DNA of 62,972 nt, from NCBI RefSeq assembly GCF_000160555.1, contig NZ_GG749280.1:536723-599694 (forward strand). Reading direction: 5' to 3'. Under the pieces are notes generated by a model. It was given only the letters and a program-made list of their open reading frames with translations, was not told where the DNA came from and did not search any database. The stretch's first letter is position 1, and each line of letters begins with the position of its first letter. This DNA comes from Centipeda noxia ATCC 43541 (GTDB taxonomy: Bacteria; Bacillota; Negativicutes; Selenomonadales; Selenomonadaceae). A program made the position numbers and the translations under genes. This document shows positions 3,445 to 44,847 of this stretch, in pieces.

Positions 3445-4227
3445 TTAAACAATTTTCGGATAAAGGCGGCGTGCATTCTCTGTTGTATAGCGCGCAACCT
3501 CCTCGACCGTCTCGCCGCGGATCTCGGCAATCTTCGCCGCGACATGAACGACGTAGGCGGGTTCGTTGCGCTTGCCGCGCAGGGGTACGGGCGCGAGGTA
3601 GGGACTGTCCGTCTCGATGAGGAGCTTATCGCGCGGCGCCTCGCGCACGATATCGGGCAGCTTCGCCGCATTCTTGAACGTGAGCGGACCGTCGATGCCG
3701 ATGCAGAACCCCATCTTCCAGAGTTCGCGCGCCGTCTCGATGCTGCCCGAGTAGCAGTGCAGCACGCCCGTGAGCCCCTCTCCCGCCGCTTTTAGAATGG
3801 CGAGTGTATCGCCGTGCGCCTCGCGGTCATGAATGCAGACAGGCAGCCCGGCCGCACGCGCAAGCCGAAGCTGCACCGTGAAAAGTTCCCGTTGGAGGGC
3901 ACGCCGCTCCGGGTCTTTTTCCCAGTAGTAGTCGAGGCCGATCTCACCGATCGCGACGACCTTCGGATGCTTTGCCCATGCGAGGAGCTGCTCCTGCATC
4001 TCGTCCGTCGGCGCGCAGGCGCTCTCAGGGTGAATGCCGACGGCAGCGTAGAGCGCGGGATAGCGCTCCGCGTCTGCAACTGCCTGCGCGGACGCCGCCA
4101 TCGTATCGCCCATGCTGATGATCTGCCCGACGCCCGCCTCTGCCGCGCGTGCGATCGTCTCGGGCAAATCGTCTGCGAATCGCTCGTCATAAAGATGAGC
4201 GTGTGTGTCGATCAGCTCCATCATCAT
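3445..4227 (-). CDS. tatD: TatD-family metal-dependent deoxyribonuclease
   Basis: This 260-residue cytosolic hydrolase of the TatD/YcfH family has a TIM-barrel metal site. The N-terminal DTHAHL motif, GEIGLDYYW, the CIHDREAH segment, HCYSG and the C-terminal ETDSPYLAP supply the metal ligands. TatD proteins act as 3'-5' exonucleases in DNA repair and as quality-control nucleases. The start ATG overlaps the metG stop in an ATGA arrangement, so the two genes are probably translationally coupled. A second and third ATG follow at once, and the exact start among the three is uncertain. Confidence 0.93.
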   Translation of the reverse strand: MMMELIDTHAHLYDERFADDLPETIARAAEAGVGQIISMGDTMAASAQAVADAERYPALYAAVGIHPESACAPTDEMQEQLLAWAKHPKVVAIGEIGLDYYWEKDPERRALQRELFTVQLRLARAAGLPVCIHDREAHGDTLAILKAAGEGLTGVLHCYSGSIETARELWKMGFCIGIDGPLTFKNAAKLPDIVREAPRDKLLIETDSPYLAPVPLRGKRNEPAYVVHVAAKIAEIRGETVEEVARYTTENARRLYPKIV

Positions 4228-5765
4228 TCAGTCTCAATGCGCGGGAACAACTGCTCTGCCGTGCCGACCGCGTGGCCGTCAGGCAGGCCGCCCCACGCAG
4301 CATCGGAGAGCTGCACCGCATCAAAGTCCGTGGCAAAGCCCAGCTGAGCGTGAATGCGGCGCGCGGTCACAGGCAGGAACGGCGAGATGAGGATGCTCGT
4401 AATGCGCAGCGACTCGACGAGATGATAGAGCACGGCGTCGAGCTCCGCCGCCTTCGCCTCATCCTTCGCGAGTGTCCACGGCGCGGTCTCGTCGATGTAC
4501 TTATTCGTGCGCGAAATCAGTGCCCACGCCGTCTTGATCGCCGCCGACAGTTCCATCTGTTCCATCTGCTCCGTGTAGGTCTTGACGGTCTCCTGCGCCA
4601 TCTCCTCAAGTGCCGCGTCGAAGTCCGTGCGCCCCGTGCCCTTTGCGATGACGCCCTTGCGGTACTTCTTCGCCATCGAGAGCGTGCGGTGGAGGAGGTT
4701 GCCGAGGTCGTTTGCGAGATCGGAGTTGATGCGCCCGATCAGCGCATCGCGCGAGATGTTGCCGTCCTGTCCGAGCGTGATCTCGCGCAGGAGGAAGTAG
4801 CGCACGGCATCCGCGCCGAACTCCTCGATGAGCGCAATCGGGTCGACGACGTTGCCGACCGACTTCGACATCTTCGCGCCATCCACGATGAGCCAGCCGT
4901 GCCCGTAGACCTTTTTCGGCAGGTCAAGGCCGAGCGCCATGAGCATGCAGCCCCAGATGATCGTATGGAAGCGCACGATCTCCTTGCCGACGAGATGGAC
5001 GTCTGCGGGCCAGTATTTGCTGAACTTTTCCTTGTCATGCAGATAGCCGATCGGCGTAAGGTAGTTCGTAAGCGCGTCGAACCAGACGTAGACGACGTGC
5101 TTCGGGTCGAACGGCACGGGGATGCCCCAGTCGAACGAGGTGCGCGAAACGCAGAGGTCCTCAAGTCCCTGCTCAATGAAGGCAATCATTTCGTTGCGGC
5201 GCGAGACGGGCTGGATGAAGTCGGGGTGCTCGTTGATATAGGCGATGAGGCGGTCCGCATATTTGCTCATGCGGAAGAAGTATGCCTCCTCCGCAACCTC
5301 CTGCACGGGGCGGTGGCAGTCGGGGCAGCAGCCGTTCTCGTCCAGCTGCAGCTTCGTCCAGTAGCTCTCGCACGGCGTGCAGTAGAGCCCCTTGTACGCC
5401 CCCTTGTAAATGTCACCCTGATCGTAGATCTGCTGAAAAATATTCTGTACGAGCTCATAATGGCGCGGCTCGGAGGTGCGAATGAAGTCGTCATAGGAGA
5501 TGCCGAGCAGCCGCCAGAGTTCCTGAAAGCCCGCGACAATGCGGTCGACGTACTGAAGGGGCGTCACCCCCTCCTTCTCCGCCGCCTGCTGAATCTTTTG
5601 CCCGTGCTCATCCGAGCCGGTCAGAAAGAACACATCGCAGCCCGCGAGCCGCTTGAACCGCGCAATCGTGTCCGCAACAGTGGTGCAGTAGGCATGGCCG
5701 ATGTGGAGTTTGGCGCTCGGGTAGTAAATTGGTGTGGTAATGTAAAATGGAGTCTTTCCGCTCAT
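4224..5765 (-). CDS. metG: Methionyl-tRNA synthetase
   Basis: The enzyme charges tRNA-Met in the cytosol. Its 513 residues show the class I catalytic core: HIGH at residues 21-24, a CTPC...CPDC zinc knuckle near residues 130-150, and KMSKS about residue 300, followed by the helical anticodon-binding domain. The protein ends there and lacks the C-terminal EMAP-like tRNA-binding domain found in longer bacterial MetRS proteins. It has its own promoter (5798-5826) and overlaps tatD by four bases. The neighbouring rsmI, its usual partner, is separated from it by a restriction-modification cassette. Confidence 0.97.
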   Translation of the reverse strand: MSGKTPFYITTPIYYPSAKLHIGHAYCTTVADTIARFKRLAGCDVFFLTGSDEHGQKIQQAAEKEGVTPLQYVDRIVAGFQELWRLLGISYDDFIRTSEPRHYELVQNIFQQIYDQGDIYKGAYKGLYCTPCESYWTKLQLDENGCCPDCHRPVQEVAEEAYFFRMSKYADRLIAYINEHPDFIQPVSRRNEMIAFIEQGLEDLCVSRTSFDWGIPVPFDPKHVVYVWFDALTNYLTPIGYLHDKEKFSKYWPADVHLVGKEIVRFHTIIWGCMLMALGLDLPKKVYGHGWLIVDGAKMSKSVGNVVDPIALIEEFGADAVRYFLLREITLGQDGNISRDALIGRINSDLANDLGNLLHRTLSMAKKYRKGVIAKGTGRTDFDAALEEMAQETVKTYTEQMEQMELSAAIKTAWALISRTNKYIDETAPWTLAKDEAKAAELDAVLYHLVESLRITSILISPFLPVTARRIHAQLGFATDFDAVQLSDAAWGGLPDGHAVGTAEQLFPRIETE

Positions 5766-5836: not shown

Positions 5837-6244
5837 CTATAGATATTCGTCAATCACGGCAAGCACACCGGCAAGATCCTTCTCTATGTCGCTCGTCCAA
5901 AACCGCAGAACAAGCCACCCCATCTCGGTCAGTGAGTCGTTCACCTCGCGGTCGCGCTCGACATTGCGGGCGAGTTTTGCCCGCCAAAAGGACTGATTGC
6001 TCGCCACTTCCTCGCCCGGATTCTCCCGATGTCCGCGTGCGTGCCAAAAATCCCCATCGACAAAGATTGCAATCTTTCGCCCCGCGAGCACAATGTCCGG
6101 TGTCCCGGGGAGCGCACGGACATTCTTACGGTAACGAACGCCTCGCTTCCAGAGGCCTTTCCGCAGGGCAATCTCCGGCTTCGTATCCTTCGCACGGACA
6201 CGGCGCATACACTTCCTGCGCTGTTTCTGTGTCAGTTTATCCAT
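5837..6244 (-). CDS. vsr: Very short patch repair endonuclease (Vsr)
   Basis: Vsr nicks beside T:G mismatches that arise when 5-methylcytosine deaminates, so that the T can be replaced. The 135-residue protein has the family layout: an N-terminal KCMRRVRAKDTKPE segment, GTPDIVL with the predicted catalytic aspartate, and FVDGDFWHARGH. It overlaps the restriction endonuclease gene by eight bases and is the last gene of the cassette, after the methyltransferase and nuclease. Vsr genes often travel with cytosine-5 methyltransferases, so its target is probably the sequence methylated by the adjacent enzyme. Confidence 0.92.
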   Translation of the reverse strand: MDKLTQKQRRKCMRRVRAKDTKPEIALRKGLWKRGVRYRKNVRALPGTPDIVLAGRKIAIFVDGDFWHARGHRENPGEEVASNQSFWRAKLARNVERDREVNDSLTEMGWLVLRFWTSDIEKDLAGVLAVIDEYL

Positions 6245-7337
6245 GATCCTTGAATCGAATCTGCAAATTCAGATTGATGTAGTGAATGCCGTCCACCTCG
6301 TAGATGCAGCAGTAGTCGTTCCGCGAAGACGACGCTCTCTCCAATCGTGTGCTGCAAAGAAGATATTCCTCGAAGAAATTTCGGTTGTAGATATGATAGG
6401 CAACAACAGCGCCATCCGCACGCGCAATGATGTAGCCGCCCGACGCATCCTCCGTCCCCGACCACGCTTTGGCAGGCTGCATTCCGAGTGCAACGGCGCA
6501 GAGAAACTTTTTGAATTTGTATTCATAGAGTTTCTGCGGATCGGCAACATGGAACGGGTTGGCTTCCGCAACGGTTTGCAGGAGTTTGCGGCAGTTGAGT
6601 TCGCCGCTGTGATAGCTTTCAAGCAGCAATGCGGCAAGAAGACGGTCAAACGACATATCAATGAAGCTGAGATTGTTCCGAAACATGTCGCTTGCAGGAC
6701 GGATATAGCGGAGGCTGCCACCCGCCGCAGAGATCTCCTGCATCCGCTCCAGCAGTTTTTTTCTTCCCTCAATAGCGTTGATGCGGGAAATATCCGCCCC
6801 ATCCAGCCCCTCCACCGCAAATACGAAATTTGTCGATTTTGAGGCATTGAGGAGGGTTGGGGCTGCCCCGATATACGATTTGATCGAGAACGCAAAGACG
6901 TTTTCAATGCCCGTATGAATATCGTGCAGCAGCATGGTGATGTCCGCTTTCTCTGCGGAGGAAGCCTTGACCTTGCAGATGGAAAGGTGTTCCATAACCT
7001 CCGCCGCAAGTGGAATGGCGAAGGCCCCCCTGCCCACGCGTATTGCGTCGAGCAGAGCCTTCGCATAGGAGGTCAGCAACGACCTCTTGACCGTGTGAAC
7101 CGCCATCCCGTTGCAGGTAATCTCCACACCATGATCGCGCACAGTCATATCAATCTGCCGATCTTCGTCCTCACTGCGCATGACTTTGAGGATAGGAAAG
7201 AAGCAATCTGCGAGCGCATTGAGTTCCGCGTCCGCCGCGTAGAGCCGTCCCGTTCCGAGCAGATGGACGAGCACGTAGAGTTCACTCCACTCCCCCTGAT
7301 TCGCCTTGACTGCGCTCTCCTGAGAATGTACGGTCAT
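6237..7337 (-). CDS. HpaII-family type II restriction endonuclease
   Basis: This 366-residue protein resembles the HpaII restriction enzyme family, which cleaves CCGG. The recognisable part is the N-terminal NQGEWSELYVLVHLLGTG block followed by LYAADAELN, and the overall length is similar to that family. The start at 7337 is chosen for its GGGAGG site nine bases upstream; the frame stays open ten codons further. It overlaps the methyltransferase gene by 56 bases and vsr by eight, so the three genes form one tight operon. The CCGG specificity is inferred from family resemblance and was not read from the sequence. I cannot point to individual catalytic residues with certainty. Confidence 0.8.
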   Translation of the reverse strand: MTVHSQESAVKANQGEWSELYVLVHLLGTGRLYAADAELNALADCFFPILKVMRSEDEDRQIDMTVRDHGVEITCNGMAVHTVKRSLLTSYAKALLDAIRVGRGAFAIPLAAEVMEHLSICKVKASSAEKADITMLLHDIHTGIENVFAFSIKSYIGAAPTLLNASKSTNFVFAVEGLDGADISRINAIEGRKKLLERMQEISAAGGSLRYIRPASDMFRNNLSFIDMSFDRLLAALLLESYHSGELNCRKLLQTVAEANPFHVADPQKLYEYKFKKFLCAVALGMQPAKAWSGTEDASGGYIIARADGAVVAYHIYNRNFFEEYLLCSTRLERASSSRNDYCCIYEVDGIHYINLNLQIRFKDHG

Positions 7338-8400
7338 GAGTAAGCACCTCCCTGATGTTCCAGGCAATCGCCTCGATCACATTAACGGTCACACTGTTGC
7401 CAAGCTGCTTGTAAAGATGCGTATCGGCAAGCGGCAGCAGAAAGTCATCGGGAAAGCCCTGCAAACGCGCCCATTCGCGCGGGGTCATCTTGCGGATGCC
7501 CTCGCGGTTGACCGCGCCCTTGATGCGGGTAACAGGGGTAAAGTTCGTGAGACGCTTGTCGACAATGAGATTGCGCTCCCGTCCCATCCCTCCGCAGACA
7601 ATCGCGCCCGCCTGTCCGTCAAGCTCTCGAACCTCGTAGCCGAATCCGTGTCCGAGTGCCTCATGATGTGCCTTGTGGCGGCGCAGCGAGGCAAGGTAGA
7701 CAGTCGAGAGGTAGTATTTTACACTGACTTCTTCCGCTTCCATGATATCACGAATGGTCGTGTTTGAATCATGCCCCTCGGGAAATGCGAACCCCGTACT
7801 GTCAATATCATTCCGAAAGGCAACAATATAGATGCGTTCACGGTTTTGCGGCACACCAAAGTCCTTGCTGTTCAAAACCTTGCTGTATACGGTATAGCCG
7901 ATCTGACAGAATGCTTCCTGTATCACCCGAAAGGTACGTCCCTTGTCATGGATGGTCAGGCCCTTGACATTTTCACAAAAAATCACCTTGGGACGATGAT
8001 AATCACAGATGCGGACAACATCAAGAAAGAGCGTTCCCCGACACATCCCGGCATAGTTATCCTCGAACCCCATGTGTCTGCCCGCCATCGAAAATGCCTG
8101 ACACGGAAATCCCGCCAGACAGATATCAAAGGGGGCAATCTCCTCTGCGGCGATCTTCGTAATGTCGCCCGCAATCTCGAAGGAATCGTTGTAATTTGCA
8201 CGGTAGGTCTTTTGCGCGTGTTCATCCCACTCACTGACAAATACGGTACGGATCGCATCACCAAACGCATTGTCAAAGCCCTTACGAATCCCCCCGATGC
8301 CCGCAAAGAGATCGATCGAGCGATATGTATCGTCTGCAAAGGACAGTTTTTCGTCGTAGGCAGGAGGAAAACATTCAAACAAAGGCATTGTTTCGATCAT
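7282..8400 (-). CDS. DNA (cytosine-5)-methyltransferase of the restriction-modification cassette
   Basis: This 372-residue Dcm/HpaII-type enzyme transfers a methyl group from S-adenosylmethionine to cytosine C5 and protects host DNA from the adjacent nuclease. All core motifs are visible: DLFAGIGGIRKGF (I), GFPCQAFS with the catalytic cysteine (IV), ENVKGL (VI), PQNRERIYIVAF (VIII), a target-recognition region, then REWARLQGFP (IX) and QLGNSVTVNVIEAI (X). I start at 8400 because AAAAGGAG lies just upstream; an ATG at 8415 has no ribosome site. The gene is preceded by a promoter overlapped by a 41-base palindrome. Base composition is visibly lower in GC than the flanking metG and rsmI. Confidence 0.93.
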   Translation of the reverse strand: MIETMPLFECFPPAYDEKLSFADDTYRSIDLFAGIGGIRKGFDNAFGDAIRTVFVSEWDEHAQKTYRANYNDSFEIAGDITKIAAEEIAPFDICLAGFPCQAFSMAGRHMGFEDNYAGMCRGTLFLDVVRICDYHRPKVIFCENVKGLTIHDKGRTFRVIQEAFCQIGYTVYSKVLNSKDFGVPQNRERIYIVAFRNDIDSTGFAFPEGHDSNTTIRDIMEAEEVSVKYYLSTVYLASLRRHKAHHEALGHGFGYEVRELDGQAGAIVCGGMGRERNLIVDKRLTNFTPVTRIKGAVNREGIRKMTPREWARLQGFPDDFLLPLADTHLYKQLGNSVTVNVIEAIAWNIREVLTHDRTFSGERSQGESGGVE

Positions 8401-8468
8401 AGGGCTCCTTTTCATTATGATTTTTAAAGCAAATTCTGATAAAGGAATTCCACCAGACGGCAGTACTT

Positions 8469-8509
8469 ATCTTTCTAATCACGATTATAATAATCGTGAT
8501 TAGAAAGAT
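8469..8509. repeat. 41-bp perfect palindrome at the methyltransferase promoter
   Basis: Two 20-base arms (8469-8488 and 8490-8509) are exact reverse complements around a single A at 8489. One end overlaps the -10 box of the methyltransferase promoter and the rest covers the predicted start of transcription. This fits an operator that controls the cassette. It would also form a long hairpin at the 5' end of the mRNA. There is no T run after it in either direction, so a terminator is unlikely. Confidence 0.9.
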
Positions 8510-8536
8510 TATATACCGTTTGACGAAAATCATCAA
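8508..8536 (-). promoter_or_regulatory. Promoter of the restriction-modification operon
   Basis: The minus strand has TTGATG (8531-8536), a 17-base spacer and TATAAT (8508-8513). It starts immediately after the rsmI stop, and its -10 box shares two bases with the palindrome. Confidence 0.7.
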
Positions 8537-8539
8537 TCT

Positions 8540-9397
8540 TCAGTGGGAGTCATCGTCCCCCACCAATACCGCCTGATATACCTCCCTGCGCGAGATGCCG
8601 AGTTCCTGCGCGGTGCGGCGCATGGCCTCCTTCTTGTCGAGTCCCGCGGCGATATGTGCCTCGTAGCGCTCCATGAGGGTCGCCTCCGCCGCATCCGCAG
8701 CGGCGGCAGTACTCTTGTCCGCTCCTGCAACAATGAGGACGAACTCGCCGCGCGGTTCGTTCTCCCGATAATGCGTGAGGAGTTCGCCGAGCATCATGCG
8801 GCGGAACTCCTCGAACTTTTTCGTGAGCTCGCGCGCGGCGCATGCGCGCCGCTCCGCTCCGAGTGTCTCCGCGAGGACCGCGAGTGTCTCACGCAGGCGG
8901 TGCGGCGCCTCGTAGAAGATGAGCGTCTCGGGATATCCTGCAATACGTGCGAGGAGCTCCCTGCGCTTCTTGTCTTTGCGTGGGAGAAACCCGACGAAGA
9001 CAAAGCCCTCCAGCGGAAGCCCCGCGCAGATGAGACCGGAGAGCGCCGCGTTCGCCCCCGGCAGAGGCGTGACGAGAATCCCCTCGGCAATGGCGCGCTG
9101 CGCAAGATCGCCGCCGGGGTCGGCAATGCCCGGCAGCCCTGCATCGCTGACACAGACGATGGTCTCACCTGCAAGAAGCCGCGCGATGAGTTCCGGTCCC
9201 TTGGCATCCTTATTGTGCTCGTAGTAGCTCGTCATCGGCGTATGGATGTCATAGTGCGCGAGCAGCGCGCGCGTGTGCCGCGTGTCCTCGGCCGCGATGC
9301 AGTCCGCTGCACGCAGTGTCTCAACGGCGCGGTAGGTGATGTCGCCGAGGTTGCCGATGGGCGTTCCGCAGAGATAAAGCCGTCCCGTCTGTTCCAC
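8540..9397 (-). CDS. rsmI: 16S rRNA (cytidine1402-2'-O)-methyltransferase
   Basis: RsmI uses S-adenosylmethionine to methylate the ribose of C1402 in the decoding centre of 16S rRNA. The 285-residue protein has the tetrapyrrole-methylase fold: LYLCGTPIGNLGDIT at the N-terminus, AAEDTRHTRALL, SDAGLPGIADPG, PLPGANAALSGL and FYEAPHRLRETL. A C-terminal helical tail ends in a helix-turn-helix-like ISRREVYQAVL. The start is GTG at 9397, six bases after GGAGGAA. In related genomes it is commonly next to metG; here a restriction-modification cassette intervenes. Confidence 0.95.
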   Translation of the reverse strand: MEQTGRLYLCGTPIGNLGDITYRAVETLRAADCIAAEDTRHTRALLAHYDIHTPMTSYYEHNKDAKGPELIARLLAGETIVCVSDAGLPGIADPGGDLAQRAIAEGILVTPLPGANAALSGLICAGLPLEGFVFVGFLPRKDKKRRELLARIAGYPETLIFYEAPHRLRETLAVLAETLGAERRACAARELTKKFEEFRRMMLGELLTHYRENEPRGEFVLIVAGADKSTAAAADAAEATLMERYEAHIAAGLDKKEAMRRTAQELGISRREVYQAVLVGDDDSH

Positions 9398-15663: not shown

Positions 15664-15709
15664 AAAAGGGCGGTACGAATGTGAATTTCACATTCGTACC
15701 GCCCTTTTT
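15664..15709. terminator. Bidirectional terminator between the tannase-like gene and bioY
   Basis: An 18-base stem (15668-15685 with 15687-15704) has T runs on the plus side (five) and the minus side (four), so it can end both convergent transcripts. Confidence 0.92.
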
Positions 15710-43186: not shown

Positions 43187-43214
43187 AAATCCCCCTCCGT
43201 ACGGAGGGGGATTT
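43187..43214. terminator. Bidirectional terminator between the nucleotidyltransferase gene and ompM
   Basis: AAATCCCCCTCCGT and ACGGAGGGGGATTT are exact complements with no loop beyond the turn, with a long A run on one side (T run for the minus strand). The same hairpin recurs after the second ompM gene. Confidence 0.9.
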
Positions 43215-44819: not shown

Positions 44820-44847
44820 AAATCCCCCTCCGTGCGGAGGGGGATTT
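44820..44847 (-). terminator. Terminator of ompM copy 2
   Basis: AAATCCCCCTCC pairs with GGAGGGGGATTT around GTGC, followed by a T run on the minus strand. It is nearly identical to the copy 1 terminator. Confidence 0.9.

Follow-up and report, generated by a model that had tools for sequence, protein, structure and literature searches.

In front of the HpaII-type restriction-modification (RM) operon of Centipeda noxia ATCC 43541 lies a 41-bp perfect palindrome that seems once to have served a different gene. It is, we think it probable, the operator-promoter of an ATPase gene of a kind that probably represses itself in relatives, orphaned here and captured by dcm-hpaIIR-vsr. Behind this reading stand the element itself, the synteny of the slot it occupies, its pattern of presence and absence in the genus, the family-wide association of such sites with ATPase genes, and the way in which site spelling tracks the relatedness of those ATPases. 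The features concerned, in the window—the whole 62,972-nucleotide stretch analysed—are these:

4224..5765, minus strand: metG, conserved in the genus, bordering the slot downstream
5837..6244, minus strand: vsr, Vsr mismatch endonuclease (profile search)
6237..7367, minus strand: hpaIIR, HpaII-family restriction endonuclease (PF09561, E 1.1e-103)
7282..8415, minus strand: dcm, C5-cytosine methyltransferase of the HpaII-type operon (ORF list and profile search)
8469..8509, no strand: 41-bp perfect palindrome, 20-nt arms and 1-nt centre, the putative orphaned operator (arm search; homologous elements in relatives)
8476..8487, no strand: dyad 1, TAATCACGATTA (sequence reading)
8491..8502, no strand: dyad 2, TAATCGTGATTA, its centre 15 bp from that of dyad 1
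8508..8513, minus strand: -10 box TATAAT (promoter scan), sharing two bases with the palindrome
8531..8536, minus strand: -35 box TTGATG (promoter scan), with a 17-nt spacer to the -10 box
8540..9397, minus strand: rsmI, conserved in the genus, bordering the slot upstream

The palindrome and its promoter

The three genes dcm-hpaIIR-vsr fill the slot behind the palindrome, with dcm the first gene—its true start, by eye, perhaps at 8400, after AAAAGGAG—and the G+C content of the operon is modestly below that of most flanking blocks. No C gene was found among the neighbours searched (rsmI, dcm, hpaIIR, vsr and metG). The initial annotation described a perfect 41-bp palindrome overlapping the -10 box, and was right on both counts: the arms, 8469–8488 and 8490–8509, are 20 nt each and 100% complementary around a 1-nt centre, and the overlap comprises the last two bases of TATAAT (the span 8469–8536 given at the time is palindrome plus promoter). 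From base composition, perfect arms like these are expected about 1e-7 times per window. They comprise two TAATCNNGATTA dyads and 7-nt outer arms with CTTTC/GAAAG, and the exact core of the genus's clade—TAATCNNGATTA dyads 15 bp apart—is present at 8476–8502.

Among perfect palindromes in the window with centres of up to 8 nt, this one is the second longest. The longest, at 15664–15708, is 45 bp, perfect and G+C-rich with A-run and T-run ends, and by eye looks like a two-way intrinsic terminator. Near-identical G+C-rich hairpins, AAATCCCCCTCCGT-CGGAGGGGGATTT, occur at 43187–43214 and 44820–44847, with ~1.6 kb between them.

Two promoter-like matches were returned by a scan of 8300–8700. The better, TTGATG-17-TATAAT on the minus strand, scores 10/12, with 0.4 expected by chance; the second (9/12, at 8442–8414) falls between the palindrome and dcm and is at about chance level, as is a weak terminator-like hairpin at 8463–8450 in the same interval. 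The edge of TATAAT at 8508 and the palindrome centre at 8489 fit the spacing expected of such operators, with the centre ~10–18 bp after the -10 box.

Two other identities were considered and discarded. The palindrome is not an interspersed repeat: the initial annotation had raised the prospect of many genomic copies, and a whole-genome search finds the core in one place only (two rows, one for each strand). Nor is it the intrinsic terminator of rsmI: the stem is A+T-rich, a T run is absent, and the terminator scan makes no call.

The rsmI-metG slot in the genus

The order rsmI-[slot]-metG is kept in 13 of the 13 other genomes of the genus. Six of these have the palindrome and an ATPase gene in the slot, and seven have neither, but short spacers or other sequence, instead. 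With the window included, the element is found 3' of rsmI in 7 of 14 genomes, with 0–3 mismatches and in one place each; in the other six the ATPase gene is directly behind it, and TATAAT stands at the left edge of the palindrome, as in the window. The ATPase gene is present in exactly the same 6 of 14. Searched genome-wide, the window genome has no match to the ATPase at E<=1e-3 and no DUF234 domain. No cognate ATPase gene stands immediately downstream of the window element, and among genus sites at up to three mismatches it is the only one of which this is so; it is an orphan of the ATPase-operator kind, not a working member.

Read in gene orientation, the window and another genome of the genus, G003, agree at 40 of the 41 palindrome bases, only the centre being different, and diverge at once past the palindrome. 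G005, without palindrome and without ATPase, still carries the promoter text found upstream in the window, TTGATGATTTTCGTCAAACGGT, past which the match is lost. The simplest account of these alignments would be that the promoter-operator in the window was inherited from the ATPase state, and that the genes behind it are new. The genus has a second HpaII-type dcm-hpaIIR-vsr operon (L084, in genome G009), at another locus and without palindrome, whose identity to the window's is 67% for dcm, 40% for the nuclease and 34% for vsr. On the rsmI side of the slot, L072, L075 and L081 have a common spacer, GGTTCT.TGATAA.TGTTAC, that resembles a small interspersed repeat.

The ATPase of the genus is 473–474 aa long, starts VFIGRxxEL, and contains ATPase_2 (PF01637) and DUF234 (PF03008) domains, both over the Pfam cut-off. 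It matches the PADLOC profile PDC-S27 with an E value of 5.6e-63. In its passages on PDC-S27, PMC12988326 names a PD-(D/E)XK fold, gives the number of systems as 3503 for Archaea and 4562 for Bacteria, and relates that most candidates of this sort still await testing. Two motifs retained by viral-contig relatives, E390-I-D392 and G406-E-C-K409, fit such a fold; that they are catalytic is our reading of the sequence. Weak winged-helix matches (TrmB, HTH_27 and Sulfolobus_pRN), all below their gathering cut-offs, fall within residues 240–296, between the two domains. A structure model from three viral-contig relatives, poor overall (mean pLDDT 48.8), has helix-helix-helix-strand-strand at 239–309 in a viral-contig relative, with a block at pLDDT 58–78 over 241–290. 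A sequence search of the PDB with the ATPase returned only 2qen (E 7.6e-07, residues 5–273). Relatives of the ATPase occur on plasmids and on phage/viral contigs, none of those found being as much as 60% identical to the genus ATPase.

These observations suggest the following course of events. The palindrome and TATAAT would be the operator-promoter of an ATPase_2/wHTH-like/DUF234 gene formerly situated in the slot that rsmI and metG flank. In those relatives that have the gene, its product probably recognises both dyads by way of a winged-helix-like region and, so bound, would cover the transcription start and repress its own gene; the site looks like a repressor's position because its centre lies over the expected start. 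In the window, the ATPase gene would have been lost, or replaced by dcm-hpaIIR-vsr, with the junction at the palindrome's 3' end, the ATPase state presumably having come first. The operon would now be read from a near-consensus promoter without a cognate repressor and, because the binder is gone, its expression from the captured promoter is expected to be constitutive; we suppose that nothing else binds the palindrome.

Symmetric sites upstream of ATPases across the family

At up to two mismatches, the core occurs in 13 of 189 family genomes. Nine have an ATPase gene behind it and four, by inspection of ~1.5 kb on each side with gene names assigned by eye, do not: the window, L053, L054 and L064. 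L053 and L054, of another genus, have a clade-1 operator near 1501–1527, after an hxlR-like gene and without an ATPase beside it; agreement between the two stops soon past the palindrome. In L064 the clade-1 operator, also near 1501–1527 and by eye a perfect 41-bp palindrome, lies between mcp-like and transporter-like genes, and might, with no ATPase beside it, be another orphan or captured operator. The exact core has no match in viral_contigs.

ATPases of other clades have differently spelled sites in the same position. We found 97 ATPase places, fetched 90 and scored 84, leaving unscored L092, L093 and L097 (N-terminus not findable) and L121, L123 and L148 (no start placed). A dyad score of at least 10 is reached by 52 of the 84 ATPase upstreams versus 11 of 187 control ORFs, where the score, the ORF control and the choice of starts are our own constructions, and the controls are long ORFs that include spurious ones and come in part from other genomes. 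Three of those 11 controls are the window-type element itself, and without them the figure is 8/184. At 13 or more it is 37/84 versus 3/187, two of the three again being the window-type element. All 40 shuffles are beaten by 55/84 upstreams, and 32/84 score below 10; starts were picked by pattern, and some of these stretches are perhaps off by a few codons. The symmetric stretch is longest in L142, at 58 bp, with perfect arms of 25 nt and an 8-nt centre. By eye, L117 and L126 have direct repeats with a period of 15–16 bp, which suggests a protein-binding register, and L105 shows little. One genome, G021, has five ATPases and five differently spelled upstream stretches.

Position is regular, too. 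In 50 of the 52 high-scoring loci a -10 box could be found, and the dyad centre lies a median of 14.5 bp after it. Among the 17 rows of clade 1, a set that takes in the orphans and the window, outer-arm bases are complementary at position 14 from the centre in 17/17 (8.6 expected) and at positions 16 and 17 in 15/17 each (7.9 and 8.9 expected), by a shuffle that ignores relatedness, some rows being near-identical. Complementarity is kept through changes on both sides. This co-change could come from a symmetric complex, or from the repair of near-palindromes by the mechanism of template switching.

Spelling follows the ATPase. We compared pairs by likeness over the N-terminal 59 residues, and called sites similar above the 99th percentile of a null, i.e. 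1% by chance. Pairs 60–85% alike share site similarity in 73.4% of 222 cases, versus 0/206 for a far flank, a control that lies further upstream and may differ from the site in base composition; pairs at least 85% alike do so in 95% of 40, versus 31% of 39 for the flank. For pairs 45–60% alike the proportion is 13.2% of 961, for 35–45% it is 10.5% of 1903, and for pairs less alike than that 7.5% of 360; site spelling is not fully clade-specific, and the -10 box, being part of the stretch compared, may contribute to this low-identity sharing. Because spelling follows relatedness in this way, the ATPase itself is the likely binder.

Outside the family, 30 loci of the phylum were taken and 28 read (L184 and L187 were left out); 17 of the 28 score at least 10, a count made with no shuffle control in a set where at least one locus, L194, is a terminator-like hairpin and some pairs are near-identical. 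Similar dyads can be seen by eye at a Rhodothermus plasmid gene (L199) and in phage/viral copies (L201–L205).

Alternative explanations and known systems

Could the palindrome belong to the RM operon after all? The initial annotation pointed to other HpaII-type operons as a place to look for it, and we looked: upstream of the first gene and upstream of dcm, the element is absent from 18 of 18 testable loci (a nineteenth, L022, is cut by a contig end and was left out). The best dyad score there is 9, and the core is absent. A control site specific to RM is ruled out by this result, and a methyltransferase autoregulatory site, which had also been proposed, is unlikely since the element of relatives fronts an ATPase and these 18 loci lack it. 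The proposal of an operator for an unknown regulator fares better in part: a putative operator it remains, but not one native to the RM operon, given that relatives carry it before an ATPase.

A regulator of some other kind, still present in the genome, might bind the site and control the RM operon today. The palindrome is intact although the ATPase is absent—a perfect element without its supposed repressor needs either recent replacement or some present use—and orphan copies exist elsewhere, in L053, L054 and L064. Against this, each element-bearing genome has a single site, which speaks for a local regulator; within the genus, at up to three mismatches, every site apart from the window's is accompanied by the ATPase; and spelling tracks ATPase relatedness. 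We consider such a regulator unlikely. The initial annotation also suggested a 5' mRNA hairpin that would delay the nuclease, and a hairpin on the dcm transcript might also act by stabilising it. A stem can form in the window: a transcript from 8503 downward has a 13-bp terminal stem, the whole 124-nt leader folds at -28 kcal/mol (z -2.96, matched by 0 of 200 shuffles), and genus relatives with perfect sites fold well, too (L065, z -3.94; L066, z -3.35). From the position of the -10 box, however, transcription would start inside the 5' arm and leave the full stem untranscribed; in 36 of 50 loci the symmetric arms extend into the -10 box, a part of the promoter that stays outside the transcript; and dcm is the first gene, so delay would strike the methyltransferase as well. 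Other leaders of the same clade have no significant fold (z -1.51 in L068, +0.52 in L069, -0.19 in L070, +0.29 in L085, +0.83 in L089 and -0.2 in L114). With starts assumed 7 nt past the -10 box, and 6 of the 84 loci left out for want of a usable box, z is below -2 in only 15 of 78 ATPase-family leaders and above -1 in 54, and for 7 no more than 1 of 100 shuffles folds as well. An RNA stem as the common property of the family is ruled out by these numbers; a protein site at the level of DNA explains more, and a hairpin function in the window strikes us as improbable.

Finally, the palindrome might act as a DNA structure, or as a nuclease or recombination target at a junction of cassette exchange, perhaps cut by the DUF234 nuclease. 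Agreement between the window and G003 ends right at the palindrome, that between L053 and L054 soon past it, and outer-arm complementarity survives two-sided changes at positions 14, 16 and 17. Regular placement by the -10 box, ahead of the ribosome site, speaks for transcription, however, and G005 has the promoter text that precedes the element without the element itself; we regard this explanation as very improbable.

We return to the captured operator of a self-repressing ATPase. If the reading is correct, the window is a natural case of promoter capture, in which the switch of one candidate defence gene has passed to another defence system. A visible operator that tracks its ATPase offers a direct way in: from it one can predict that the protein recognises DNA sequence, at which place, and by what means it is kept silent. 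A broader generalization, of low probability in our view, is that DUF234/PDC-S27 nuclease-ATPases are widespread, self-controlled defence candidates, each with an evolving symmetric operator of its own, that such operators can be pirated, as by the RM operon here, and that an incoming PDC-S27 gene would switch the RM system. Were this true, the arrival of such a gene on a mobile element would wire two defences together.

In the open papers searched—subscription papers and preprints lay outside the search—operators of DUF234/PDC-S27 ATPases are undescribed; the main text of PMC12988326 has no occurrence of 'palindrom', and its passages on PDC-S27 do not mention operators. The gene behind the palindrome in relatives matches the PDC-S27 profile and both Pfam domains, and the window keeps only the putative operator-promoter. 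The arrangement in relatives would resemble the operators of toxin-antitoxin systems such as yefM-yoeB and axe-txe, symmetric sites that cover a promoter and are bound by the operon's own product, with the difference that a single ATPase-nuclease gene is involved, not a pair, and that the symmetric stretches are as long as the 58 bp of L142. Type II RM systems are known to be controlled through C-protein boxes and methyltransferase-autoregulated promoters. The window resembles these, and RptR, in having a symmetric site over the promoter of an RM operon; unlike theirs, its site appears to have been inherited from another gene.
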